Assembly: GCF_030253575.1 (NCBI RefSeq)
Contig: NC_080569.1
Span: 5,333,501-5,397,500 of the forward strand
Length of the DNA stretch: 64,000 nt
Direction of reading: 5' to 3'
Origin: Rhododendron vialii
Taxonomy: Eukaryota > Streptophyta > Magnoliopsida > Ericales > Ericaceae
Shown: one piece after another, positions 7,935-64,000 of the stretch
Layout: each line of letters starts with the position of its first letter
How positions within the stretch are numbered: position 1 is the stretch's first letter
Position numbers and translations under genes: made by a program
Notes under the pieces: generated by a model
Told to the model about the DNA's origin: nothing
What the model saw: the letters and a program-made list of their open reading frames with translations, nothing else
The model's database searches: none

Positions 7935-9837
7935 TCATGCCCTAAAACAACAATAATATCCACACCCACCAGATTTCTTCTTACCCCTTTTGCGACTGCT
8001 GTCACTGTCACTCCTTTGTCTTGAATTATCGTCTTGTTGTTTCTCTCCTCCTCGATTATGATCCTCTCCAATGCCTTCAATTCTTGAACCTCTTGTGCTA
8101 TCATAGGCTTCTGCAGTAGTAACCGATTGATAAGTCAGATTATAACTCCCACCGGCCTCTTCTATCTCCTTAGCATGTTGAATAAGAAAGTGTCGTGAGT
8201 CCAAAGGCAGGACGGGTTTGTAGAAGCTAATCAAATCCCCAGTTTCCACCTTGTACTCCTTCACAAATCCCTCCCAACCACTTTCGAGAAAGTAGGTTCC
8301 GAAAAAGCACCGGATTTTGCAGCACCACTCCATGTTTTTAGCATCAGTAAAATAAAGTCTCTCCAGCTCATGAGTTTCAGCAGGAATCCCAACTGCTGGG
8401 AAATGGTGTCTCACTTGTTCCTCAGAAAGACTTAGCCGCGGCCTGTCACATCCAACTTCAGATAGGGTCAATTGTTTCTGGAAAAGAAAATTTTCCTGCT
8501 TGAACTCCAAACTCTCCTCTGCAATTCTCCTAAATACAGGTTCAATCAGGAAACAATCATCTTCTGCCCGGGGGAAAGGTTTGTGGAAGCGAATCACATC
8601 TTTAGCTCTCAAGTTGTTCTGCTCGGCAAACGTCTGCCAGTCCTCCATCAGAAAGACACATTCTTCCCGATCATACTTGATTTTCGTGGACCACCACCAA
8701 TTGCAAGTATCGGTAGTTAGCTTAATTACCGTCTCTTCTTGTCCTTTACTATCTATTTTTGGAAGAAACCTTTGAAAATAGTCCAATGCTATTTCTACTG
8801 GAATTGAGAGCCTCCCCTGGTAATCAACTTCGCTAGGCGTCAACCGCATCTGAAAGAGTAATTTCCTCAACTTGAACTGGAAAACTTTGGTTGGTTTCGG
8901 TGTGGTTAGCAATAAAGTTCCACTGCTATCACCAAATCTCTTGAGATGTTCAATAAGGAAGTGTCGCGAGGTTAAAGGCTGGACTCGCTGGAAAGGCGGT
9001 CGGTAGAACCTTATCACATCCCCGGCTTCCACGTTGTGCTCCTTCACGTATTCCCCCCAGTCAATCATGTAGGTTCCTGACGCATGGTACGTGATTTTCA
9101 TGCACCACTCCCTGTTTTGAGCGTCAGTAAAGTACAGCCTCTCCACATGACGAGGAGTCTCCCCGGAATGAGTGGGGATCCTAACTACGCGAAAATGCCT
9201 TCTTACTATTTCTTCATCAAGGATCATCGATCCGAAATTGAGATTGTATTCGCTCACTAGCCACTGGAACTCAAACTTTTCTCTCATGAATGTAGCAGGA
9301 AAATTCTCGCCAACACCTTCGTCTTGATCCCTCAATCTGACATGTTTTTCAATCAGGTAATGGTTGTTTTGTGAGCCATTACCACCACCGGTAGCGCCAA
9401 AAGGTCTGTAGAAGCGAATCACATCCTTAGTTTTTAAATCATTGGACAAGGCAAAACTTAGCCACCACTCGCTGTCAATCAGGAACGCGCATTCCTCTCG
9501 AATGTACCTCATTGTCATGGGCCAAATGCGGCCTTGGGTGTCGGAAATAGTTATCTTCTTCTCCCAAGTATTTGGACCGTGTTTGGGTGGTGGTGGGGGA
9601 AAATCATTGTCCATGGTTATCTCCACGGGAATGAAGAGCCTGGCCTGTCCAATGTCGTCAGGTGTCAACCGCAGCTCGAAGAGGAAAATTTTCCTAGTGA
9701 AGGAAGGAACAGTGGTTGGTTTGGCAAGCAACAGATCGTGGGTTGTCGGCATATAAAATAAAGGGCTATCTGGTTTATCAGTAGAATCATCCTCTGTTCC
9801 TTTTAGCTTCTCCATGCCACCCCTCATAGTTGAGTCT
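7935..9837 (-). CDS. G2: four-B3-domain protein, main exon
   Basis: One open exon of 634 codons follows an acceptor (TTTGCAG/AGACTC) and keeps the array's phase-2 junction. Numbering from the internal Met, there are four B3 domains at about 48-160, 185-293, 323-428 and 447-551. Domains 1 and 3 share (M)RLTP..(D/E)V and RLFIPVEI/RLSIPVEIAL. Domains 2 and 4 share the ERLYFTDA.N.EWC.KI signature and VE(A/T)GD, so the protein looks like a duplicated two-domain module. The tail is Asp/Ser/Arg-rich, then polybasic (RKRGKKK), ending in a Cys cluster (SGGCGYYCCF). It is likely a nuclear DNA-binding protein; the multiple domains could contact extended or repeated sites. I could not find its first exon in 9.9-11 kb. 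Confidence 0.85.
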
Positions 9838-12224
9838 CTGCAAATTTAAATGGGGGAACAAAACCATTGAAAAGTTCAGTCTGATCATGGCAATTGGCAC
9901 AAAAGATACATCTTATCTGTCAATTAGTTATATGTAGTTATGCACACACACACGCAAATTCTGCAGGTGTCCGGGCAGCTTATGCACACCTTGACTGATC
10001 CAAGGAGACCAAGAAAAGCAAGCAAACTCTGCAGGTTATCTTTCAAGATTTACTCAAAGAATGTAGAAATATGGACAACATAAATTGGCCTCCTCCATGG
10101 TATGGCTAGAAATTATCCCCTCAATCAGTAATGGGCTTTGTTGAGTTCATTCATCAACAATGGATCATGTAATTTCAGAATATAGTAGAACAGAAACCCA
10201 CAACGTGTTGGACACACTTGGGACACGCGAGCGTGTGGAAGCCAACTTCGGTTCATCTTCCTTGCATGCAAGCAAACATGCTAGTATAGACTATAGAGAG
10301 ACATGCGTAATACTCTCTCCGTCCCACAAAGAATGCCCATTTTCACCACTTTCCATTGTCTAAATATTTTTATGTAAAATATGTTTTTCGATCTTAAGAA
10401 CTTTGTTTAATAAACTAAGTGAGATAACAAGATACGTATTGCATGCAAAAAAAATAAAATATATAAGAAAGGTTAGATAGTTGTATGAAACATGTGAACG
10501 GTGAAGAACTGACATTTTTCATGGGACGGAGAGAGTAATAAGATAGAAAAAGATGAGATTCAACAAGTTCACGAAATTTCCAAACCCAAGAATGAGTCAA
10601 AAATCGCCCTCTTCTTCTCCAGTGAATAACAACAATTCGCATCAAATCACCGCATCCGAACATGAATCAAACCAAATCCTCAGAGAAAAACTAACAAAAA
10701 GAACAGATCAGTCAATGAAGCATTATAGGGGGTAGAGAGTTGAAGCAATGACCTGCTGATGAACAGAGTAAACATATAGAGGTTGACCTTGAATTTTTTT
10801 TTTCTTTCTTCTGAAATCAGGTGGACCTCAAAGGGTTCAGAGTCAAAATCTTTATATAATCTTTTTGGAGTATTGATAGGACCATAAATGTTTTCCCTAC
10901 TATATAGTGCATAATAGGAAACTTATTTAAGGAAAGAATCAAATAAAATCCCACAAGTATAGTAACGTTATTAATTAAATCACATCCCATTTTTAGGAAA
11001 CAATATCCTAAACTCTAGTTTCCAAAGTTAGTTTCAATCAAGTTCATGGTTTTTCTCTTGCACTCAAGTTGATTGCTTTTGTTTGCTTTCTTCCTCTGCT
11101 CCGTCTTCTTCTCCGGGACTACATTTTTGTTTCGGAAAACCCCAAGAACCTTAATATCTCTTTTTGCTTTTCTTTTGATAACTGTGTGTCGGAGCCAGCT
11201 TATCCCACACCCTCAACTAATTAATCCTAAGATTCCAATCCCACTGTCCAAAAAAAGACCTTTCTCCTGGAATTCCGAAATATTGGATATCGTTGTATCC
11301 AACGGGCAAGATTTTGCTTCGGAAACCCTAAACTCCATTATTTCTTCTCGCAGTTAGCTAGATTCATACAACTTCCGTTTTTGGTAGTTAGGATCATAGA
11401 TCGGCGATTTTACTGCAAAAAGGGAAAAAATGATTCATATATAAGCATCAGGAGAATACACCGTGTCATTAGATTACCTTTCTGATTTGACAAAATTCTG
11501 CATCATTTTTACTTGATTTTTCACTACAATATTATTAGTAACTCCCATCTGCTATTCCCATCCCAATTCCAAGTTCCAAATGTAAGTATATGATTTCTTC
11601 TACGTTCTAATAGCTTTGCTTTGGAATAGATGGGAAAAAAAAGAAAAGAAAATGTCCACATGTGCAACATAAGATATGTCACTTATGCTTTAATCATTAA
11701 TCAATAAGACCAAAAGTTGGTTAATTGTAGCTTCAATGGAGAAAGGTACGAGTCCATTGCTTCTGGGCAGTTGTCTATAAAAGCCAAAAGTTGTTCTTGG
11801 CTTCTTGCTTAGTTGGCCTCTTGATAAGTCTCTGAATCAAGCATATTTGTAACTTGTACAAACAAAATGACAATAATAAATTGAAGCTGAGTATGACAAG
11901 GCAACCATAATCCATTGAGCAACAAAAAAAGAGTCATTGAGCTCTCGGATGATGACTATTGTGCATGTAGGGACTATGGTCTGAGCAAAAGCTCATACTA
12001 TAACGAGCGCCTGTTGATTAATCTGATGAGTATATTTCTATCCTCTGCAACATGATCGATTCAACCTTTGATCAAAAAGATTTATGTAGTAGTCCATCAA
12101 TCTAAAGTAATATGTACTAGGAAGTAAACCAACAATGCCACCTTGCCTAAGGGTAAAAAATGAGACCGCGACTGAGTCATGAATCATGATCAAAGCTTAG
12201 TAAAATATAACATCTCCAACTTGC
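9838..12224. other. Gene-free stretch upstream of G2
   Basis: Contains the Stowaway-type MITE annotated separately. A plus-strand ORF of 94 codons (11073-11357) opens with a hydrophobic stretch but matches nothing I know. The missing first exon and promoter of G2 should lie here, but no MS(D/E)NRG-type exon or (GA)n leader is visible. Confidence 0.4.
10313..10535. mobile_element. Stowaway-like MITE (Tc1/mariner)
   Basis: The termini read CTCTCTCCGTCCCA and its inverse TGGGACGGAGAGAG, flanked by TA on both sides (10311-10312 and 10536-10537). This is the familiar CTCCCTCCGTCCC terminal repeat with a TA target duplication. It is about 223 bp, AT-rich inside, with no coding capacity. Confidence 0.85.
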
Positions 12225-23111: not shown

Positions 23112-24705
23112 GTGTATGTGTGTTTGGCTGTGGATTTATAAAAACAAATGCATGGCGAGGTGACTTTTGCCGAATGTCCACCAACATAATGAGGTCAATG
23201 TTCTCGATCAGATTTACAATGTGAACGGTTTTGATCAATTTTTTTTTTTTGGTTTAGAAATGATCCTAAAATTGCAACAACCGGACAAGTTTACTTCAAT
23301 GGGATTGCCTTATTCATGGAGGAGCCGTGAACAAGACAATTACGGAAACGTATGATCTTGACTGTTTGTTTTGACTCTGAATGGTCCGGATTTTAATGAA
23401 AGTCTTTCCCGAAGAAGTTTCATCAAATTCCCGATTGTCCAATACACCTTAGACGTGCGCAATGGTGCTCCGCAACACCATTTTTCACGGAAACATCCTT
23501 AGAAAAGATTTTTTATACTCTAAGGGGGTGTTCCGGATTATGAAAAAACTATTTTTGAAAAAGAATGTAATTTGAAGTTTAAAAATCATGTGTTTACGAA
23601 AATAATTTTTCTACCAATATAGATCTTGTTTGAGATACGGTGCAAAAAAAATTAAAAAAATATTTTTTATTTTTATTATATTTGAGTTTGAAAATATAAA
23701 AAAAAAAAACTTTTACAATAGGAAGGTAAAATGGAACGGGGCCTAATTATGTCACACTTTTTAGAATGTAAAGAGCAATAACTTTTCTGTACTTCCAAAC
23801 CTTCCAAATGGAAATGATCAAAAAAAAAAAAAAAACCCTTCCAAATTGCTCCCCCCTTGTGTTTTTACAATCCTTTATTTCACTTATTTGCTCATTCAGT
23901 GAGGAATCCTTCTAATAATTTTCTTCATAGCTTACAATTTGAAATTTTGGTTCCAAATGATTATTCTACTTCCTATTTGCTTTATTTTCCATTTTTGTTT
24001 AAATTTTTAATAATATTTTTATTTCTTGCCCCTCCCATCTCAAAATCCTCGTTCCGCCCCCAAAAGGCATCCAATGAGTATTGAGCCAGTGATTGTAAAC
24101 CATCCGTTAACGGGCCCATTTAAGCGACCAACTGAACATATACGAAAACTTCATGAGTAGTATATTACCTTAGTGCTCTACTAATCCTGCATCAACTCAT
24201 CATTTAACACTCGACATGGTTTCCACCAAGTACTCTTTCTCCTTGTATTATTGCCGGAAAAGCAATACGAAAAAGCAGAAAATTATGTGTTTCCTGTAAC
24301 ACTCAAGAAAATTTTGAGCTCGAAGTTAGCCCTTTTTCAATCTTTAAGCTCCCTAGTGCTATTTCATTTGATAACTGCAACTTCATTGATGTTCAAGACT
24401 TCACATCAGTATCATGATCATTGATCAGCAAACCTAAAATCTAGCTACTGTTCCTTGTTTTGGACTTCATATTATTTAAGGTAGCTCAGTATCCGTAAGT
24501 TTTCACCGCAAAAATGACAAACAATACGCCAACGAGACAACTAGTAGAAGGAATGGTAAATCTAAGAGTTTCTCATTTCATTTGTGTCAGCAATTGGACG
24601 AATATTTCTGCAGACTTAATACTTGAATTTTCCTGTCTTCCTTGGAATATACAATGGTGCTACCATTCATTCCCTTGACCTTGAATCACCACTGCTGCAA
24701 CGTCC
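23109..24705. other. Intergenic, paralogous to 31.9-33.1 kb
   Basis: Aligns over most of its length with the stretch upstream of G8's 3' end, for example the TTTGCTCATTCAGT...CCTTCTAATAATTTTC block. No gene is supported. AT-rich, with several A/T homopolymers. Confidence 0.55.
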
Positions 24706-25624
24706 TTGTTCAAGAGTACTCTGTTGCTTTTCGTTGCGAAACAGCAACATTCAAAACCAACTTTCCGCCACTGTGACTCCTTCCTCCACCATCGCTCTGT
24801 CTGTTGTTGCCTCTATCTGTTCGTCCTCCTCCACCATCACCCTGTTCGTCACCGCCTCCATCCATGGTATCATCTGTTGCTACAGTCTCGGATTGAGTCC
24901 GATTACCACCTTGTTTCACAAATGCAACAGTGTAAAGGATGTACAGGTCTACAAAAGCTAATCATATCTCTTTTTCCCAAATTGTGCTTTGTGAAAAAAT
25001 CAGCCAGCATAAGGTGGTAAAAACCACGATAGTATCCGATTTTTATTTTAGATCAGTAAAATACAACCTCTCAACGTCATGTGTTCCAGCAGGGATTCCA
25101 ACAGCAGAGAAATGTTTGAATACATCCTCAGCGAAGATGATGAGCCTTTTGTACCGCATGTCCATATTGGTCAATGTCAGCTGAAACATGAAATTTTCAA
25201 ACTTGAATTCATGGATAGTATTTGGATATCTTCTTTTGACAGTTTCAACCAGGTAACGGTTGTCGTCTGAAAATGGGACTGGTTTGTAGCAGCAAATCTT
25301 ACCCAAAGTTTTCACATTGTTCCAGATAGCAAATATCTGCCACTTGTTTTCCAGGATCCGAAGGATCATACCTCAGAGTCATAGGCCAATCGAAGTTTTG
25401 AGGGTCGGAAATCTGTATCTTCTTCTTGTAAGTTTCCTGACAATCGGCTGGAGGAGGGAAACATTTCAAAGCTGCTTCCACAGAAATTAGAAGTTTGTTT
25501 AGCTAAGCATCACCAGGAGTTATAAGCACTTGAAACAGAAAAATTCCCATCTTTTCACCAACTTTGGTATGGGTGCCAGAAACCACAGGCCTTAGAAACC
25601 ACAGGCCTTCTACTGATAGCAGAT
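24706..25624 (-). pseudogene. G7 (Q-type): decayed two-B3 exon
   Basis: Nearest paralogue is G8. Relative to it the exon has a TAG at about 25506 (LNKLL region), and a small deletion breaks the frame after RYDPS (near 25360). About 20 bp are missing near 25048 (after YFTD), about 15 bp before the SRHFLI strand near 24930, and about 8 bp near the stop. Surviving pieces still read EAALKCFPPPADC, NFDWPMT, NFMFQLTLTN and VERLYFTD. A 17-bp direct duplication (AACCACAGGCCTT) sits just inside the acceptor. Confidence 0.88.
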
Positions 25625-26124
25625 CTGCATGAGGAAACAAAAGTGAGTAAGTGAATTGACAATGGAAATCGGCAAAACACTACAGCTTAGCTTAAGTGGG
25701 TACAGAAATCATCGAACATTCACTAGACCACCTCATCTTCATTGAGACAAAAAGAAACATAAAAGAAGGGGGATTGGGAAAGGTCTATGATCTTTCAATC
25801 TTTAATTTTCTTTTCTTGGCATGGTTAAGAGTTAAGACGGTGCTGGAATCAACGATAAGTGGAGGGATATTATCATGGAAAAGGAAATTGGTCAGGGAAT
25901 CAAAGAACAAAATCTAGCGTCTTTAATTCTTTATCTGTTTAGGAGGCAAGAAAATGGAAAGAACTGAAAAGAAAAACACGCACGGATTAATACCAAGAAA
26001 CTAAACATGTTCTTTTCTGGCAAGCACAAACATATCAGTATGTATTGCATAAATGCATAAGAAACTATACATGTTCTTCGATGTCATCAATTTTCTTGGT
26101 GAAGAACTAGTATCAGGTACTTAC

Positions 26125-35901: not shown

Positions 35902-37407
35902 ATTTCAAGTTGGGACTATTTGTGGGTGTTTCTCGAATCTTTAAAAAAAGATCGTAGTCCTTCACTTTTTAAATCTAGTGGATCGTATTAGTTCTTCCAA
36001 AAACCATGATAATTAGAGTTTAGATAGATTTAGTCCAGTGTGTACATATTGTTATTATAAGAAAAATGTCTAACGACTGATTCCCAATGGACATGATACG
36101 GTTAATCGTCCGATGAGATTTACTTTGTGAACGATTCCGATTAGTTTTTAGCGTTCGGAAATAACCCGAAAATTGCCACAACAGACAATCTAATCCCAAC
36201 TATGAACACTTTATTAGATTTTCTGTTTTGTTTATAGACCCAGATAAAAAAGGCAAAAAAACAATAAATTTTGTCTGAAGGCCCAAAATGAGCCCTCCAT
36301 GGTTAAAGGCCCAGTAAAAAACCTTTCTTCTCCAATGGCCTCAAAAGCCCAATGAGGAAAACCACATCTTTCCATGTGCATATGAGGTGAAAACCAATAT
36401 AATAAAAGTGATATAATCCATCTTAATAGCAAGAAGTTAAAGGGCAATAACTTTTAGAATAAACAATACACCAAAAAAAAAGAGTTAGGGTAGTGATTTT
36501 CGGACTCCTCTTTTTACCATTCACACTTTTTCACGAACATATTTTGTCCCACAATTTCAAACCCTCATGATAGCTTTATAATCCTTTACTTATACTTATT
36601 TGGTCATTTAGTAAGAGATTTCTAGTGATTTTCATCATAGCTGACAATTTGAATATTGGGTTCAAAATGATTATTCTATATACTTCCTGTTTGCTTTATT
36701 TGTCTTTATTGGTTTAGTAATTTTGTAACAATTTATTTTTATCGATCTCTTGCTCCTTCTAACCCAAAATCCTCGTTCTGCCCTTAAAAGGCCTCCAATC
36801 AGTTATTGTAAGGCTTGTAACTATTGAATCTATTAATATTTTCGAGTGCCCCGACAAGCATATGCACACCTCAACTAAATCTTGGTTGAACAATTCAACC
36901 GTCCACTGTATATAGCAATCATGAGTAAAGTACTCCTACTAGACTAATCCTGCATCGTACACATCATTTAACACTCCACATTGTTCCCACCAAGTGCTCT
37001 TTCTCCTTATAACACTCCAGAAAATTTTGACCAGAAAAAGCAAAACGAAAGAGCAGTAAAAGATGTGTTGCGACTTGAAGACTTGACATAGTTTCATGAT
37101 CAACAAACCAAGAATCTAGCTACTGTTCCTAGTTTAGAAACCTTGTACAAGGAAAGCTAATCAAAGAGTATCACACTTCATTTGCATCAGTAATGGCATG
37201 ATATTTCTGCAGACCTAACACATGAACTTTCCTATCTTATTACTTCTTACTTGGAACATGCGAGGGAGCTTTCCAAAAATGCAATGGACGGCTCGGATGC
37301 GCCGAGTGGGCACCACGTGGTACCCACTCGGCACTGAAAATTTTCCCCTTACTAGACTGTTTTTTATCCCTTGAACATGAATCAAACAACTGCTGCCACT
37401 TCCTCGT
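35902..37407. other. Intergenic, 3' flank of G9
   Basis: The left part continues the paralogy with 20.0-20.3 kb. The part from about 36.8 kb resembles the 3' flanks of G7/G8. It contains the G-box hairpin at 37301-37333. No gene supported. Confidence 0.5.
37301..37333. repeat. Near-perfect hairpin centred on CACGTG
   Basis: GCCGAGTGGG(C/T)ACCACGTGG and its inverse form a 33-base palindrome with a G-box core. The same terminal words bound the MITE-like elements at 46463-46669 and 61634-61818, so this may be a short or solo form of that family. Confidence 0.75.
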
Positions 37408-38668
37408 TCAAGAATCCTCTGTCCTTGCATTACTTTTCATTCCCACACAGCAACCACCAAAACTAAATTTCCACCACTTGCGGCCCCCACTGCGACTCCC
37501 TCCTCCATCATCACCCTGTTCGTTGCCGCCTATAACGGCTCCTCCTCCACCATCACCCTCACTGCCACCGCCGCGGTCCGTGCAATCATTTACTGGTGCA
37601 GTCCCCGATTGAGTCGGATCACCACGTCCTTTCACAAATCCAATAAGAAAGTGACGTGAATGTAAAGGCTGGTCAGCTTTGTAAAACCTGATCATATCCC
37701 CTACTCCCAAATTGTGTTCATCAATGAATGCCTCCATCCTAAGCAGGAAAGGACCGCGAAAGAAGTCAATTTCCATGCACCATTGACCGTTTCGATCATC
37801 AGTAAAATAAAGCATCTCCATCTGATGTGTTTCAGCAGGGATTCCAACCACCCGGAAATGATTCCTTACTTCTTCCGGAGAAATGATGAGACTTCCCAAC
37901 CTGATGTCTACATTGGTCAAAGGACGCTGAAACAGGAAATTATCAGGCTTGACTTCAGGGATGATCAATCTTGCATGCCAAATGTCTTCGGCAACTTCAC
38001 AAAATCGATTCGAAAAATAACCCTCTTTGAATGTTTTTAATGGATAAAGATCGCCTCGTCTGCTCCCTGATGCTATCACTCGTTTTGTGGTCCTGTCCTT
38101 TATCATAAAACTAGTAGCAGAGAATTCAAAATTGAATGGATAGTCTGAAGTAAACTTACAGACAGATAATATATTATCCTTGACTTCTGGAACTAGCAGC
38201 ACATTTTTAAGTAAAATCATCCGATGCCCCAAATTTATTGTTGCATCTCCGATATGTGTAATGGGCAATAAATCACCAATTGCCACCATTAGTTTGTTAT
38301 TACCTTTATAGGGTCGTAGGTTGTGAAGTTTACTTGAGTCTCCAGTACTGTGATCTGAGGCTCCACTATCGATTAACCACTCAACAATAGGAACATCTGC
38401 TGAAGTAGAAGACACTAGAGCTTGGGGAATATCATAGGTCAGAAACATAAGCCAATCGGTGATTCGAGGTGGGTCTGAGATATGCTGCATACGTATCTTC
38501 TTCTTGTAAGTTTGACGATCGGCTAGAGAAGGGAAATATTGCAATGCTGCTTCCACAGGAATTAGGAGCCTGCCTCGAGTAACAACACCCTGGGTCACCA
38601 ACACTTCAAAGAGAAAAAATACCATCTTATCACCGACTTTGGTTGGTGAGCCAGAAAACAACAAAGAT
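37408..38668 (-). CDS. G9 (R-type): B3 protein with in-frame Ty1/copia protease fragment
   Basis: One open exon after acceptor CTTATGCAG/ATCTTTG; with 39582-39781 (phase 2) it gives 486 aa. The first half of B3-1 is normal (FLFEVLVTQGVV, RLLIPVEAALQYFPS, WLMFLTYD). At about 38430 the sequence switches to a copia-type segment of about 155 residues: retropepsin signature WLIDSGASDHSTG, then NVLLVPEVKDNILSV, GDLYPL and DIWHARL, the start of the GAG-pre-integrase region. At about 37966 it returns to B3 sequence and a complete B3-2 (FLFQRPLTNVDI, EEVRNHF, MEMLYFTDD, IRFYKAD, SRHFLIGF). The tail ends KWWKFSFGGCC..KSNARTEDS. The C-terminal half of B3-1 (about 50 residues in G14) is missing. Both joints are in frame and no stop occurs. 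Confidence 0.88.
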
Positions 38669-39581
38669 CTGCATAAGAGAAGAAGAAAAGCGAGTGAGCC
38701 CATTGACCATGGTAATTGGCAGGACAATACAGCTTAGCTTAAAACACATCCAGCTAAATTTAAGTGACGACAGAAACCATGAAATATTCACCAGACCTCG
38801 TGTCTACTGATCTTCATGGAGAAGAAATAAAGATTCGGAAAGAAGATCAATGATCTTTCAAGCTTTATTTATTCTCTCTTCTCGATGTGACTAACAGTTG
38901 GGTTCATGGAAATCTATTTAGCACAAGTTTTCCATGTACACGAAACAAAACAATCTGTTCTTCCCAAGAGAATGCAAGAACAATGTAGCTTCTCTAGGGG
39001 TTTCTTAATAACTTCAATCGCTGACTCCGAATTTAGCTTCTTTACTTCATTGTCTTCTTTCCTTTGCGTTCCATCCAAAAGAGGCAACATAATCTGTTCT
39101 TTCCAAGAAAACCCAATGGTAATGTAGCTGTGACAACGTTCTGTAGGGGTTTCTTAATGATTTCAATCACTGAATCCACCCGCGCGCACAGCACACACAA
39201 AAGCACCTGATTTTCCAGAGCAAATATATGTACTCTAGCCCCTGAACATTGAACAAACCAATGACCTAAAGACATTTATCATGTGAGAACAACACCCCAC
39301 CCCCAAAAGAGAGAAAAAAACCACCACTACCACCCGCTCGAAATCACCTGATTCTCCTGAGCCAATACACCCACTCAACCCTTGAACGTGCAACAAACCC
39401 AACAAATTATTACATGTCAGAGATGGTAGAACACATTACAAGAAAACATGCTATTTGCATGCAAGTAAACATATCATTATGTATGACATATATGCATATC
39501 AAAGTGTGCGTGGATGTATAAACCCTTAAATACAATGAGTTTTCTTGGAAAATAACAAGTGGCACAATGTCACGTACTTAC

Positions 39582-39781
39582 CCCGACTCTACTTCTACTC
39601 TGGGTTCCTCCGTAGTCGAAATTTCAGGCGCCTTTCCTTCTCTTGTAGTACCAATGCCGGACGATGCATGTTCTTCTAAGGGCTCCTTTCCTTCTCTGTG
39701 TGTACCAATGCCGGACGATGCATGTTCTTCTAAGGGCTCCTTTCCTTCTCTGTGCGTACCAATGCCTCTGTTTTCAGACAT
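39582..39781 (-). CDS. G9 first exon with internal repeats
   Basis: 66 codons starting MSENRGIGTH, ending GAGTCGG/GTAAG in phase 2. An 18-residue unit, GIGTHREGKEPLEEHASS, occurs twice in full and a third time in part (GIGTTREGK). Acidic overall. Confidence 0.85.
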
Positions 39782-39807: not shown

Positions 39808-39855
<48 letters not shown>

Positions 39856-39946: not shown

Positions 39947-40888
39947 CCACTTGGGATTATATGATACAGGATCCCGTACGTATCCATTCCTTACAGGAGA
40001 GAGAAAATTGAAAATTTTAGAATCACAAGAATATATTAGAATTCTAACATGAGTATTGGCAAATCTGAGTACAGATCGAAGATGAATTCTAACAAGAGTA
40101 TTGGCATATCTGAGTACAGATCGAAGATTTAAATTTATAGGTATAGGCCATTTCTTTTCAATGTCGAGGAATTTATGTAATTGTATTTGTTGAGGCCTGA
40201 TAAGTCACCTATTGCGCATAAGACAAAAACGTTCACCAATAGTAAAAGAGTTCGAAAGTTAAAAGCAAAGCACAGAGCGACTATTGAGAGCAAAAAACTT
40301 CACCGGAAAATCATGTCACCTAGGCTCCGAATTCAATAGTAACTCCTAATCGGAGACCTAATTAAACAAGGTAGAACGAAAAAAGGTTTATTAGAAGCTG
40401 GTGAAATATTGTTTTGATCTTTGCTGTTCAAATTATCGACTAATAACTTCGAAGAGCTCCGACAAGTTTAGTTGGTGCGTTCGCACCTTCCATTTATTTG
40501 TCATTGGAGTCCCAAAAAAAAAACATTGGAGTCCAAAAAAAACAACAAAGATATTTAAGCCAAATTTGCCCTCCAAAACTCAGAAAAAAGAAAGAAGAGG
40601 AAGGAAACCAAAACTCCAAACAGTAGTTGCCCATTATGATTGAGTTTTTACCAATTCAAAAAGGACAGAGAAATGCCTCGATGTTATCACAATCAATAAT
40701 CAGAGTGTCATCGGCAATCATCAGCAAACACTGTTCACTATCTTTTACAGAGCTAGCTACTACTAGAAACTACCATTTCGTCGTTCCATCTACCTCAGGA
40801 ATTTACAAGGAGAATCTGGAATCAAAATTTCGTCGAATGACTATCCTTACCTACTTGGTCAAAATCGCCACTGTTGCTACTTTCTTGT
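39947..40888. other. Intergenic between G9 and G10
   Basis: Aligns with 51.27-52.31 kb (between G11 and G12). It is the empty site for the retroposon inserted at 51646-51802. The right part is the S-type 3' flank shared by G10, G12 and G13. Confidence 0.6.
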
Positions 40889-41844
40889 TCATGACTCCTC
40901 TGTCCTTGCATTGCTTTTCAACGCCATACAGCAATCTCCAAAACCAAATTTCAACATCATGCGGCCCCCACTGCTACTCCCTCCTCTGCCATCACCCTGT
41001 CTGTTGCTGCCTCTGTCTGCTCCTCCTCCTCCACCATCACCCTCCCTGTCACTGCCTCGATCCGTGCAATCATTTACTGCAGCAGTCCTTAATTCAGTCG
41101 GAACACCACATCCTTTGACAAATCCAATAAGAAAGTGATCCGTGTTTAAAGAAGGCTGGTCAGCTTTGTGAAACCTAATTGTATCCCCTTCTACCAAATT
41201 GCGCTCAAGGATGAATTCCTCCATCATAAGCCGGAAAAGAGCACGAAAGCATGCAATTTTCATGCGCCATTCACCGTTCCGCTCATCAGTAAAGTAAAGA
41301 GTCTCCATGTGATGTGTTTTAGCTGGGAATTCCAACTGCGGGGAAATGACTCTTTACTTCTTTCGTGGGAATGAAGAGACTTTTGCACAAGCTGTCCGCA
41401 TCAGTCAATGGCAGCTCAACCAGGTAATTTTCAGGGTTCAATTTATGGATGATCCCTGGATACCTTCGTTTGGCAAGTTCAACCAGGTAACAGTTATTGT
41501 AACAAACCGGTAAAGGTATGTAGAAACGAATCACATCCATACCATCCAAACGATTCCGCAAAAGAAAACTCTACCAATTGCTATCCATAACGAAGAAACT
41601 CTCCAACCTAAGATATTTCACTGTCATAGGCCAATCTCTGTTTTGAGTGTCTGTGATCTCAATCTTCTCCTCGTAAGTTTCCTGACGATTGGCTAGAGAA
41701 GGGAAATATTTCAAAGCTGCTTCCACAGAAATTAGGAGCCTGCCTGGATAAACATTACGCGGAGTCACTAACACTTCAAAGAGAAAATTTCCAATATTTT
41801 CACCAACTTTGGTTGGTAAGCCAGAAATCATAGCAGTTCTAGAT
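40889..41844 (-). pseudogene. G10 (S-type): two-B3 exon with stop and frameshift
   Basis: Acceptor CTTATGCAG/ATCTAG is intact. B3-1 starts normally (FLFEVLVTPRNV, EAALKYFPS, NRDWPMT), but the conserved SNWQS codon CAG is TAG (about 41568). Further on one extra base at about 41330 (GGGAATTCC against GGGATTCG in G12) shifts B3-2. The remaining frames read METLYFTDERNGEWRM, TIRFHKAD, HFLIGFVKG and a tail ending FGDCCMALKSNARTEES. G13 has the same TAG. Confidence 0.88.
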
Positions 41845-42619
41845 CTGCATAAGAGAAGAACTTAGTGAATAAGCTAATTCACCATGGAAATTGGCAAAAC
41901 AATACAGCTTAGCTTAAAACACATCAAGGTCAAAATTAAGTGAGTATAGAAACCATGAAACATTCACTAGACCTACTGATCTCCATCAAGACAAAAGAAA
42001 GATTTGGAAAGAAGATCTATGATCCTTCAAGCTTTATTTGTTTTTTCTCAATATGCCCAAGTGTTGGAATAATTGATATGTGGAGGGATTTTAACAAGGG
42101 AAAGGAAAACAAAGAAATAGTTTTAGCTTCTTTACTTCATTGTCTTCTTTCCTTTTTCTTTCACTCCAAATGTAGCACATGGTGTCTATGTCCATGAAAC
42201 AAAACAATCTGTTCTTTCCATGAAAACCGAAGATTAATGTAGGCATGTAGCTGTGATTAAACTTCTCTAGGGATTTCTTAATGATTTCAATCATTGAATC
42301 CACGCACACAAAAGTACCTGATTTTCCAGAGCTAAAACATGCATTGTACCCCTTGAACGTGCAACAAACTCAATTAATGACGTCTTTCATTCCACTGTCA
42401 AAGAATCAAAGACGGTAGAATACAGGTAAAAACATAAGGTTGAGAACCCTAGAATCTGTATGGGAGGCAAGAAAACGGAAGAATTGAAAAGAAAAAACCC
42501 CATGGATAACACCAATAAACTACACATGCTCTTTGCACGCAAGTAAAAACATAACATAGGTATGGCATATATGCATATCAAAGTGTTTGTGGATGTATAA
42601 AACCTCAAATACCACGAGT

Positions 42620-45599: not shown

Positions 45600-46272
45600 C
45601 TGGTTTGGCGGATGACTGAATTTTTGGCCTTTGGAACTGAAAAAAAAAAATTTTGGTCCTGTTTTTGGCATTATTTTTCTGTCCGGAAAAGGCTATATTT
45701 TGCTGAGCCCCAACTTGATTATCAGAATCGTAGAGACCCGTTCAAGTCTCATAGCTTGGAAGGAGTGGAATCAAAACATTGAAGGATGGCATTGGAGGTT
45801 TCAACAATATTGTGGTTGTGAAAGACTCGTATCGAGGCGGCCCAAGAACTTCTTTTTTTTTTTGAATATGTGCGGCCCAAGAACTTGAAGTAACCAAAAA
45901 CTCTTGGTTCTATCATTTGCTGGACAGCCTATTGCACATAAGTCATCACAACACAAGCTTTTGAACTTAGTCAGTGAAGAAAAATCTTGCGAGTTTGGCA
46001 TTGTGAGTTTCTTGTGAGTTTCGGGCGAAAAAATTCTCTAAAGTATCCAGTTCCTCTGCGGAGCTGCTTAAACCCACCACCGTGCCAAGAACTTCCTCTG
46101 AGATAGATCCGGCGATCCAGCCACGAACCAATCGATCAGACCTCCTCCATAACACAAAGTCAGGATTCGGCATCTTTTCCTTGCCACCATCCGTTGATTT
46201 CTCCGGGGCGGAGATGATTGGTGCAGGAACCGAGTATTCGCCATCCACAAAGGTGGAGAGGGATGCCATAGG
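45600..46272 (-). pseudogene. Ty1/copia gag remnant, copy 1
   Basis: Start MASLSTFVDGEYSVPAP, then LWRRSDRLVRGWIAGSISEE and CCDDLCAIGCPANDR, as in copia capsid polyproteins. The frame breaks in the middle and the 3' part is shortened compared with copy 2 at 60603-61451. No other retrotransposon domain follows. Confidence 0.75.
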
Positions 46273-46462
46273 TGCAAAAGAAAAATGAATCGAAGGCAAG
46301 TATTTTAGAGTAAAATTCTCTCACACGAATATGGAGAGATTGTATTGCTTTTATACAATGTTACAAAAGCACAAGTATATACAAAAGGAGATTGAAGGAC
46401 AACTATAGCTATCAGATAGCTATCGAAAGTCCTAGCCTTGATCCAATTCTTTATCATGTTTA

Positions 46463-55437: not shown

Positions 55438-56278
55438 AAACTTGGAGGCTTTATCATCTTTCCCAAACAACCACAAACCGTTACAATTAAACTGGGATAA
55501 TACTAGGATACTGGATGATCCAATACATATCCTTGCAAATGGGTATATCCTAACTGGGACAATAAGATACAGGATCATACCATATGTATATCCTGTCATT
55601 GTGCTAAAGGCAGACAAATTGGAAAATCCAAAAATACAGTCTCTTTTTGTTTTTTTTGCTATAAGCACCACAAAAAACAAAAACCCAATGTATCACGAAA
55701 TCCATTTAATTTCCCAGAAATCCCTCAATTAAGAAATAAAATCGGAGATCCAAACCTTTTCATTTCTTCATCAGTTCGCTTTTTTCTTTTTCTGTTTTTC
55801 TCTTCTGGAGCTTAAAGCGAACCTTCCATTTATTTGACATTGGAGTCCAAAAAAAAAAAAGAAAAAGAAAAAAGGACATCGGAGTCCAAAACCCAAAAAA
55901 AAAAAAAACAGTGGAGAAAAATTTGCCCTCCAAAACTCATTGCATTAGCTTATAATTTCTGGGTCCATCCAAAAAGAAAAAGTTCAGAAAAAACAAAGAA
56001 GAAGAAAGAAACCTAGACTCCAAACAGTAGTCGTCCATTATGATTGAGTTTTTAACAATTCAAAAGGGACAGGGAAAAGCTTCGATGTTATCACAATCAA
56101 CAATCAGAGTGTCATCGGCAAACACTGTTCACTATCTTCTGCAGAGCTAGCTACTAGAAACTACCATTTAGTCCTTCCGTCTACCTCAGGAATTTACAAG
56201 GAGAATCTGGAATCAAAATTCCGTTGAATGACTATACTTACCTACTTGGTCGAAATCGGCACTGTTGCTACTTCTTGT
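55438..56278. other. Intergenic between G12 and G13
   Basis: Non-coding, A-rich, ending in the S-type 3' flank. No gene supported. Confidence 0.55.
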
Positions 56279-57226
56279 TCATGACTCCTCTGTCCTTGCA
56301 TTGCTTTTCAACGCCATACAGCAATCTCCAAAACCAAATTTCTACCTCGTGTGGCCCGCACAGCTACTCCCTCCACCATAACCCTGTCTGTTGCCGCCTC
56401 TGTCTGCTCCTCCTACACCATCACCCTCCCTGTCACCACCTCGATCCATGCTATCATCTACTGTTGCAGTCCTTGATTCAGTCGGATCACCATGTCCTTT
56501 CACAAATCCAATAAGGAAGTGATGCAAGTTTAAAGAAGGCTGGTCAGCTTTGTAAAACCTAATTGTATCCCCTTCTATCAAATGGCGCTCAGTGATGAAT
56601 TCCTCCATCATAAGCCGGAAAAGACCTCGAAAACATGCAATTTGCATGCGCCATTCACCATTCCGCTCATCAGTAAAGTAAAGCCTCTCCATGTGATGTG
56701 TTTTAGCTGGAATTCGAACTGCGGGGAAATGACTCTTTACTTCTTTCGTGGGAATGAAGAGACTTTTACACAGAATGTCCACATCAGTCAACGGCAGCTC
56801 AAACAGGAAATTTTCAGGGTTCAATTCATGGATGATTCCCGGAAACCTTCATTTGGCAAGTTCAACCAGGTCACAGTTATTGTAACAAACCGGTAAGGTT
56901 TGTAGAAACGAATCACATCCATACCATCCAAAGGGTTCCGCAAAAGAAAACTCTACCAATTGCTAACCGTAACGAAGAAACTCTCCCACCTAAGATATTT
57001 CACTGTCATAGGCCAATCTCTGTTTAGAGTGGCTGTGATCTCTATCTTCTCCTCGTAAGTTTCCTCACGATTGGCTAGAGGAGGGAAATATTTCAAAGCT
57101 GCTACCACAGGAATTAGGAGCCTGCCTAGATAAACATTACGCGGAGTCACGAACAGTTCAAAGAGAAAATTTCCAATATTTTCACCGACTTTGGTTGGTA
57201 AGCCAGAAATCATAGCAGTTCCAGAT
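56279..57226 (-). pseudogene. G13 (S-type): decayed two-B3 exon
   Basis: Carries the same SNW-TAG stop as G10 (about 56950), a one-base deletion near 56893 (GGTAAGG against GGTAAAGG in G12), and a second stop where the tail Trp codon TGG is TAG (about 56342). B3-2 is otherwise readable: FLFELPLTDVDI, EVKSHFPAVR, MERLYFTDERNGEWRM, DTIRFYKAD, HHFLIGFVKG. Confidence 0.88.
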
Positions 57227-58024
57227 CTGCATAAGAGAAGAACATAGTGAATAAGCCAATTCACCATGGAAATTGGCAAAACAAAACAGCTTAGCTTAAA
57301 ACACATCAAGGTCAAAATTAAGTGAGTATAGAAACCATGAAACATTCACTAGACCTACTGATCTCCATCAAGACAAAAGAAAGATTTCGAAAGAAGATCT
57401 ATGATCCTTCAAGCTTTATTTGTTTTTTCTCAATATGCCCAAGTGATGGAATAATTGATATGTGGAGGGATTTTACCAAGGGAAAGGAAAACAAAGAAAT
57501 AGTTTTAGCTTCTTTACTTCATTGTCTTATTTCCTTTTTCTTTCACTCCAAACGTAGCACATGTTGTCTATGTCCATGAAACAAAACAATCTGTTATTTC
57601 CATGAAAACCGAAGATTAATGTAGGCATGTAGCTGTGATTAAACTTCTCTAGGGATTTCTTAATGATTTCAATCATTGAATCCACGCACACAAAAGTACC
57701 TGATTTTCCAGAGCTAATACATGCACTGTAGCCCTTGAACGTGCAACAAACTCAATTAATGATGTCTTTCATTCCACGGTCGAAGAATCAAAGATGAATA
57801 CAGGTAAAAACAAAAGGTTGAGAACCCTAGAATCTGTATGGGAGGCAAGAAAACGGAAGAATTGAAAAGAAAAAACCCCATGGATAACACCAATAAACTA
57901 CACATGCTCTTTGCACCCAAGTAAAAACATAACATAGGTATGGCATATATGCATATCAAAGAGTCTGTGGATGTATGAAACCTCAAATACCACGAGTTTT
58001 CTTGGTAAAGAACTAGAATCCGAT

Positions 58025-60602: not shown

Positions 60603-61451
60603 TCATTCTTGATTTTGGAGTAATATGATTTTTTTTAAAACTATTTTGGCATTATCATTACTCGTTCTTTTTTTTGGGTCTAGTTTGGCAGATGACTGAA
60701 TGTTTGCCGCAACTGTCACTGTCATAACTGGAATTATTTCCTCTTCCACCTTGTCGATGTTGTGAGTGGCCGTTGGCATTGCGGCCGTTTTGTCTGGACT
60801 TTGCAAAACCTTTGCCTTTGGAACTGAAAAAATCTTGGCCCTGAAAAAAAAATTGGTCTTGTTTTTGGCATTATTTTTCTGTCTGGAAAAGGCTATATTT
60901 TGCTGAGCCTCAACTTGAATATCAGAATCGTAGAGACCCGTTTGAGTCTCATAGCTTGGAAGGAGTGGAATCAGAACATTGAACGATGGCATTGGAGGTT
61001 TCAACATTGTGGTTGTGAAAGACTCGTATCGAGGTGGCCCAAGACCTTGAAGTAACCAAAAACTCTTGGTTCTATCATTTGCCGGACAGCCTATTGCACA
61101 TAAGTCATCACAACAAAAGCTTTTGAACTTGCTCAAATAGTCATTGAGTGAAGAGAAATCTTGCCTTTTTGGCATTTGGCATTGTTGAGTTTCTTGTGAG
61201 TTTCGGGCAAAAAAATTCTCTAAAGTAACCCGTACCTCTGCGGAGCTGCTTAAACCCACCACCGTGCCAAGAACTTCCTCTGAGATAGATCCGGCAATCC
61301 AGCCACGAATCAATCGATCAGACGTCCTCCATAACACAAAGTCAGGATTCGGCATCTCCTCCTTGCCACCATCCGTTGATTTCTCCGGTGCAGAGATGAT
61401 TGGTGCAGGAACCGAGTACTCGCCATCCACAAAGGTGGAGAGGGATGCCAT
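60603..61451 (-). pseudogene. Ty1/copia gag remnant, copy 2
   Basis: Starts MASLSTFVDGEYSVPAP at 61451. The capsid part is intact: LWRTSDRLIRGWIAGSISEE, SLNDYLSKFKSFCCDDL, FWLLQGLGPPRYESF, as in UBN2-type copia Gag. After about residue 200, at an A/T homopolymer near 60845, the true frame is lost. In the neighbouring frame a Gly/Arg/Gln/Asn-rich stretch and a partial zinc-knuckle (CGKHSVICQT) can be read. No protease, integrase or RT follows, and no TGGTATCAGAGC-type primer site lies upstream. Confidence 0.8.
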
Positions 61452-61620
61452 AGGTGCAAAAGAAAAATGAATCGAAGGCAAGTATTTTAGAGTAAAATTC
61501 TCTCTCACGAATATGGAGAGATTGTATTGCTTTTATACAATGGTACAAAAGCACAAATATATACAAAAGGAGATTAAAGGACAACTATAGCTATCAGATA
61601 GTCCTAGCCTTGATCCAATT
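61452..61620 (-). mobile_element. LTR-like leader upstream of gag remnant
   Basis: On the minus strand a TGTATATATTTGTGCTTTTG-type stretch followed by AAGCAATACAATC resembles the R/U5 end of copia LTRs. A matching copy lies at 46273-46440. No second LTR is recognisable. Confidence 0.4.
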
Positions 61621-62857: not shown

Positions 62858-63854
62858 TCATGATTCCTCCGTCCTTGCATTGCTTTTCTTCAATGCCATA
62901 CAGCAACCTCCAAGACCAAATTTCCACCACTTGCGGCCACCGCTGCGACGCCCTCCTTCAACATGACCCTGTCCGTTGCCGCTTCTATCTGCTCCATCAC
63001 CCTCTCTGTTGTAACCGCCTCGATCTGTGTTATCATTTACTGCTGCAGTCCCTGATTCAGTCGGATCACCACGTTCTGTCACGAATCCAATGAGAAAGTG
63101 ACGCGAGTTCATAGAAGGCTGCAGGTCAGCTTTGTAAAACCCAATTGTATCTCCTTCTCCCAAATTGCGCTCAGTGATGAATTCCTCCATCATAAGCTGG
63201 AAAATACCCTCAGTGATGAATTCCTCCATCATAAGCCGGAAAATACCTCGACAGCACACAATCTTAACGCAATGCTGACGGTTTCGATCATCAGTAAAAT
63301 AAAGCCTCTCCATGTGATGTGTTTCAGCTGCTGGGATTCCAACTGCAGGGAAATGATTGCTGACTTCTTCCGCTGGAATGAAGAGACTTTTGCGCTGGAT
63401 GCCCTCATTGGTCAACGGCAGCTGAAACAGCAAATTCTCAGGATTGAATTCATGGATGATCTCAGCATAGCTTCTTTTGACAATTTCAAACAGGAAACGG
63501 TCGTTATCACAAACCGGGGAAGGTTTGTAGAAACGAATCACATCCCCAACTTCCAAATGGTACAACGTAACAAACATCTGCCAAATGCCATCCACGACGA
63601 AGCAACACTCAGACTTATCATAGGTCAGAAACATAAGCCAATCGGTGATTCGAGCTGGGTCTGAGATATGCTGCATACGTATCTTCTCCTTGTAAGTTTG
63701 ACGACCGGCTAGAGAAGGGAAATATTGCAATGCTGCTTCCACAGGAATTAGGAGCCTGCCTCGAGTAACATCGCCCTGAGTCACCAACACTTCAAAGATA
63801 AAAAATACCATCTTATCACCGACTTTGGTTGGTGAGCCAGAAAACAATAAAGAT
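62858..63854 (-). CDS. G14 (R-type): two-B3-domain exon, first exon outside window
   Basis: Acceptor CTTATGCAG/ATCTTT. Length fits a phase-2 entry. B3-1: FIFEVLVTQGDV, RLLIPVEAALQYFPS, WLMFLTYDKSECCF, VGDVIRFYKPSP, FLFEIV. B3-2: LLFQLPLTNEGI, EEVSNHFPAVG, MERLYFTDDRNRQHC, then GIF(R/Q)LMMEEFITE twice, NLGEGDTIGFYKAD, SRHFLIGF. The 13-residue repeat comes from an exact 39-bp tandem duplication (63170-63208, 63209-63247). The tail ends KWWKFGLGGCC..KKSNARTEES. It is the best template for what G9 looked like before the copia segment. Confidence 0.9.
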
Positions 63855-64000
63855 CTGCATAAGAGAAGAAGAAAAGCGAGTGAGCCCATTGACCATGGTA
63901 ATCGGCAGAACAATGCAGCTTAGCTTAAAACACATCCAGGCTAAATTTAAGTGATGACAGAAACCATGAAATATTCACTAGACCTCCTGTCTACTGATCT

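Follow-up and report, generated by a model that had tools for sequence, protein, structure and literature searches.

The stretch of DNA analysed here as a whole (64 kb, hereafter the window) holds a B3 gene into which part of a copia retrotransposon has been built in frame. On the minus strand, positions 37408-38733 are open from stop to stop over 441 codons and encode, from 5' to 3', half a B3 domain, then some 155 residues of copia, and finally another B3 domain, which confirms the B3-copia-B3 frame described in the first-pass annotation. The gene has three parents, its 3' joint is older than its 5' joint, the residues of its copia piece have drifted, and the frame is open. We favor the reading, at a probability of roughly 0.55, that the gene is an accidental three-part chimera in which the copia piece would be a tolerated linker and not a working protease, the predicted product being a one-domain B3 protein. 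The features on which this reading is built are collected in Table 1.

Table 1. Coordinates in the window of the B3-copia gene, its parts and joints, and the features used for comparison
Feature	Position	Strand	Details
Predicted exon 1	39582..39781	-	ATG at 39781; 200 nt; GTAAGT donor; phase matches exon 2
Predicted intron 1	38669..39581	-	Donor GTAAGT, acceptor TATGCAG
Predicted exon 2	37408..38668	-	Open down to the TGA at 37408-37410
N-terminal half of first B3 domain	38431..38668	-	I63-type parent
5' joint	38428..38435	-	B3 ...CTATGAT to copia GATATTCC; similarity breakpoint with the I63 unit
Copia pol fragment	37967..38430	-	Protease region to WHARL start of GAG-pre-integrase; Pfam and copia loci
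Catalytic Asp codon of DSGAS	38368..38370	-	Insert residue 22
3' joint	37960..37972	-	Copia WHARL to B3 IIPE; recurs in the C5 copy, where 21 nt are missing
3' part	37411..37966	-	Second B3 domain (about 37633-37947) and Gly-rich tail; other B3 lineage
Paralogue I63 (comparison gene)	62861..63919	-	Uninterrupted two-B3 frame without copia
Copia gag remnant, 3' of I63	60606..61532	-	In open frame; Retrotran_gag_2, E 1.9e-5
Second, more broken gag remnant, 3' of E48	45646..46251	-	DNA search; copia-locus gag

The gene had initially been taken for a single exon. This is probably not the case, because the frame starts on what reads as a splice acceptor (its leading 22 residues correspond to a polypyrimidine tract and an acceptor ending in TATGCAG) and because a putative exon 1, followed by a GTAAGT donor, can be read upstream. 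Judged from the sequence, a two-exon model of 486 aa, with the frame as exon 2, reads best. Part of the predicted intron agrees with the introns of two paralogues, namely at 551 of 575 ungapped positions with I63 and at 553 of 579 with E48. The predicted exon 1 protein begins with MSENRG, and similar starts lie upstream of the neighboring paralogues. A short GIGT-REGKEPLEEHASS-like repeat is present in three tandem copies in the predicted exon 1 and in fewer copies in the paralogue starts. Just 5' of exon 1 lies a long GA/CT dinucleotide run (39808-39853), and similar runs are found elsewhere in the window.

The inserted piece had been described as copia protease sequence running up to WHARL, and this identification holds. 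Pfam places Pol_BBD (PF22936) on residues 109-186 of the translated stretch 37411-38703 (E 2.3e-13; profile positions 1-78 of 81). Among the copia loci of this genome, the seven compared first all align with the insert at 46.8-51.0% protein identity, four of them over its whole 156 residues. The copia loci used throughout were hand-chosen (7 plus 40, and all 47 aligned to the insert) from a genome list of at least 102 matches, for which 95 of 1817 first-look candidates had been scored. Retropepsins carry the catalytic motif D-T/S-G/A, and the insert reads DSGA at its residues 22-25. Its Asp (residue 22), rightly reported as kept, is D in every covering copia locus among those aligned. The viral contigs searched gave no relative, and a sequence search of the PDB returned two matches (E 0.68 and 0.81), both ribosomal and taken as chance.

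The gene is embedded in a tandem series of same-strand B3 genes, visible in the window as repeat families and putatively of REM type, to judge by their multi-B3 tandem layout. A Pfam scan of 10 further frames between 7.9 and 63.9 kb found B3 in eight, the other two being gag frames. Decayed members of the array, in which the B3 frame is broken or holds stops, lie on the minus strand at 24660-25720, 40860-41880, and 56255-57360. To trace parentage, nine array units were aligned over the exon carrying the insert. On the 5' side of the insert (38431-38671), 233 of 241 sites equal those of I63 (96.7%), with 90.0% identity to E48 and 72.9-79.5% to six others. On the 3' side (37409-37966), identity is 79.0-79.6% to five paralogues alike, I63 included, and 71.6-73.3% to three others, and the best match genome-wide reaches 81%. 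The parent thus switches exactly at the insert, which therefore sits between two B3 parents. The I63 unit and the gene beyond the window end have a segmental duplicate (80-95% in pieces) in the region from 38430 to about 43 kb, and the breakpoint of this duplication is the 5' joint of the insert.

By way of comparison with I63, the first-pass annotation had also named the B3 residues that the insert replaced. It is true that 154 bp of the I63-type domain are absent, leaving the first B3 domain incomplete; these residues, however, come from just one of the parents, since what follows the insert on its 3' side derives from another B3 lineage. A single insertion into an I63-like gene was rejected on the same account, and the idea of a single replacement event gives way to three parents and two joints of unequal age.

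Relatives of the insert were sought in the plant's own genome (532.6 Mb in 13 contigs). The DNA search ignores very common words, so that absence from it is no proof. Besides the insert itself, it returned two decayed relatives, C5 (77% identity) and C13 (79%), and a recently active donor was rejected on the grounds that only these two were found. In the C5 relic, at 7.525 Mb, the protease piece continues directly into B3 sequence. This relic matches window positions 36257-38281 in order and in four pieces, which comprise the spacer downstream, the second B3 part, and 315 bp of the insert. It is rich in indels, with 18 relative to the B3-copia gene over the shared stretch, including 21 nt missing at the joint (a count that takes in an alignment end without match and is thus high rather than low). 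A tree built from the 3' part makes sisters of the C5 copy and the B3-copia gene (support 0.965), on branches of 0.175 and 0.096, respectively. The C13 relic, at 5.475 Mb, consists of a gag piece followed by protease residues and then by a spacer that resembles the window spacers at 35.7-35.8 and 19.8-20.0 kb.

Gag sequence is found within the array as well. The match of Retrotran_gag_2 to the frame downstream of I63 scores 24.6 bits, just under the cut-off of 27, and the gag of the copia loci aligns there; this remnant is probably of the same element type as the insert. The second remnant, downstream of E48, includes a short frame (45970-46320) that by itself gives no Pfam match. Gag DNA of this kind occurs in the C13 relic and downstream of both I63 and E48, with one further weak match on C6. 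At the DNA level, relatives of the insert and of such gag sequence are almost confined to the array and its surroundings. Their simplest source would be one old local copia element that was fragmented along with the array.

The two joints differ in both sequence and age. At the 3' joint, TCATCC had been proposed as microhomology shared by copia and B3. The shared letters are real, as CATCC occurs in all five and TCATCC in two of the five copia loci covering the site (two of the seven stop before it) and also in B3; they are, however, one base out of register, so that the overlap at the break is about 1 nt, and a simple microhomology joint was rejected for that reason. The left joint overlaps better: copia loci read AATGATGTTCC or something near it, with an overlap of GAT in five of six and of ATGAT in two of six (one of the seven fails to reach the site). 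As to age, the 3' joint is old and no assembly slip, because the decayed C5 copy has the same copia/B3 joint. The 5' joint is young: in a three-way comparison with I63 and E48, the side of the B3-copia gene shows changes at 6 of 310 sites since its split from I63, which is far below the gene's total branch (comparison lengths are 0.072 for the insert and 0.096 for the 3' part).

These joints also bear on the concern, raised from the start, that the gene is an artefact of assembly within a near-identical tandem array. Paralogues that are 92-97% identical do pose that risk, and the genome DNA search found no second copy of the 5' joint. The diverged second copy of the 3' joint in the C5 relic answers the concern on one side; on the other, the 5' joint falls at the edge of nonhomologous DNA, which is not where repeat collapse would be expected. 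We consider an artefact barely credible.

A plausible course of events can be outlined. The chimera would have been born within a tandem B3 array littered with the remains of a single old copia element. In a first, old rearrangement, common to the C5 copy, the end of the copia protease region was joined to the 3' portion of one B3 gene. Much later, the protease piece acquired at its start an I63-type 5' part (promoter, exon 1, and half of the first B3 domain), presumably because some 3 kb were deleted from an I63-type unit or because an older 5' part was overwritten. Both joints happen to be in frame. This history is supported by the position of the gag of a like element downstream of I63 and E48 and by the C13 relic, in which gag is followed by protease. 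The protein, if made, would be a DNA-binding protein with one B3 domain, the first being broken and the second intact.

Is the protease conserved? Against the 47 copia loci, the B3-copia gene keeps 23 of the 27 sites that are conserved at 85% or more, next to 13 of 16 in C5 and 10 of 12 in C13. With a consensus cut-off of 70%, the counts are 35 of 48, 22 of 29, and 13 of 24, respectively. In both sets the relic counts are somewhat generous, as the relic rows leave out gapped codons and treat stops as missing. The insert retains D22, S23, G24, A25, and H28. On the line to the B3-copia gene, four consensus residues that a relic retains have changed: G51A, N52I, L88I, and Q93K (copia conservation of 96%, 83%, 100%, and 70%, respectively). 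The intact catalytic motif and the lead over C13 at the looser cut-off count against the linker reading, although C5 shows no such gap.

Codon models (GY94, own implementation) tell the same story of drift. Twelve copia loci were used in the insert tree, six in the first codon models, and four in the reduced ones. The copia background has an omega of 0.06-0.115, whereas for the insert on the B3-copia branch one pair of trees yields 1.03 and 2.15, and a second pair, reduced in outgroups, yields 1.56 and 12.9, the likelihood there being flat upward. Fixing the branch at the copia background costs 5 to 7 lnL units; fixing it at 0.2 costs about 3 to 4, at 0.3 about 1.5 to 2.5, and at 0.5 about 0.5 to 1.2. 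Purifying selection on the insert after the fusion is thus not seen, omega being about 1 and the background value rejected. The residues have drifted, with room left for weak constraint (omega 0.3-0.5). As the protease no longer looks maintained as an enzyme, the copia piece most probably persists as a passive remnant of protease sequence from a dead retrotransposon.

The suggestion that a plant transcription factor here contains a working embedded retropepsin is hard to reconcile with this record. It can draw on the retained D-S-G-A and His28 and on a region that is complete from end to end; yet omega is about 1, G51 (96%) and L88 (100%) are lost while a relic keeps both, and the share of sites kept at 85% conservation is similar to that of the relics, all of which makes it exceedingly unlikely. 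A looser version, in which an expressed B3 factor has an in-frame copia module that still acts, be it as a dimerising scaffold or as a weak protease altering binding or processing, is very unlikely in our view.

A separate matter is whether the frame, rather than the residues, has been kept. Neutral indel-to-substitution ratios nearby are 0.21-0.23 in the intron and 0.11 in the spacer, from which about 8-19 indels are expected on the B3-copia branch. Over 1020 nt we counted, by eye, one indel, of three bases and in frame. Across the Poisson settings tried, the probability of one or no indel is at most 0.0033 and that of no frameshift at most 0.029, and the probability of zero indels in the insert is 0.0006-0.036. 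The scarcity of indels favors a coding past, in a test that is weaker than it appears because the gene was picked for its open frame. It is on this small test that the status of a linker (frame retained, residues free) rests.

The same rearrangement history could also have produced a pseudogene that is not usefully transcribed or translated and is open by chance, helped by its young 5' joint. Several observations fit: the insert has an omega of about 1 and has lost near-invariant residues, array neighbors near 25, 41, and 56 kb have stops or frame breaks, and the case was selected because it is open. Moreover, simulated drift leaves 341 codons without a stop in 6.8% of cases at 0.096 substitutions per site and in 16% at 0.06, so that chance may suffice. 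On the other hand, indels are fewer than neutral drift would leave, and the splice signals, exon 1, and second B3 domain appear intact. We therefore regard a pseudogene as a tentative alternative, possible but rather unlikely.

The indel record may be turned in the opposite direction too, toward a long-standing expressed fusion with its frame under selection, the 5' part of which was recently overwritten by I63-type conversion or crossing over. The retention of frame, with so few indels, on a branch that far exceeds the 5' joint in age would suit such a history, and a conversion tract would be expected to stop where nonhomologous DNA begins. Speaking against it, the similarity to I63 continues for about 2 kb through exon 1 into the next gene, which is more like a segmental duplication; no remnant of an older 5' part lies beside the joint; and the residues of the insert drift. 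This alternative strikes us as doubtful.

For the accidental chimera with a tolerated linker, the state of the second B3 domain matters. Its Pfam match (E 6.2e-4) falls short of the Pfam cut-off, as in three other array frames. Its modelled fold matches the solved B3 domains of FUS3, TEM1, and VAL1 (against FUS3, the TM-score by target length is 0.78, E 5e-6), so that Pfam match and predicted fold together indicate a complete B3 domain. In the structure model of the whole protein, with a mean pLDDT of 40, the second B3 domain alone is usable and the insert is of low confidence. The omega of this domain is 0.59, and fixing it at 1 costs 0.8 lnL units; the array gives 0.82-0.85, and 0.59 is not distinguishable from 1 or from the array values. 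This codon model used nine of the eleven aligned sequences, the broken copies near 25 and 41 kb being excluded.

Domesticated retropepsins of animals are retroelement sequences outside an element that have retained the catalytic Asp. The insert shares both its location and its Asp with them and differs in showing no sign of conservation. In plants, fusions of multicopy host domains with domains of LTR retroelements have been described, such as ankyrin repeats with peptidase A2A (retropepsin) or with DUF4219 (PMC12062965). What they have in common with our case is the combination, in one protein, of a host domain from a large family with an LTR-linked or retropepsin domain. Here, however, the host domain is B3 (a term that occurs 0 times in the main text of PMC12062965), and there is a single gene with a decayed sister instead of a conserved architecture. 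REM-type B3 genes are described as fast diverging and recently duplicated in tandem, some with more than one B3 domain (PMC2688026). The array resembles them in all three respects, whereas the first B3 domain is here interrupted by copia. Among the papers listed by a search of the open-licence literature, none names a B3-copia fusion, which is no proof of its absence from print.

The gene offers a datable example of how a tandem transcription-factor array, together with retrotransposon debris, gives rise to chimeric reading frames, with three parents, two joints of unequal age, and a decayed sister that serves as a control. Relics in the same genome, as used here, also offer a means of checking whether an unusual domain architecture is under constraint. 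Should the protein be made, it would test whether a B3 factor can accommodate some 155 foreign residues where half of a DNA-binding domain would otherwise be.

Other members of the array have unusual frames of their own. The minus-strand frame at 7938-9845 (636 codons) holds four B3 stretches in one exon-like frame, and the second B3 domain of I63 contains a 39-nt in-frame tandem duplication (63170-63250, minus strand).
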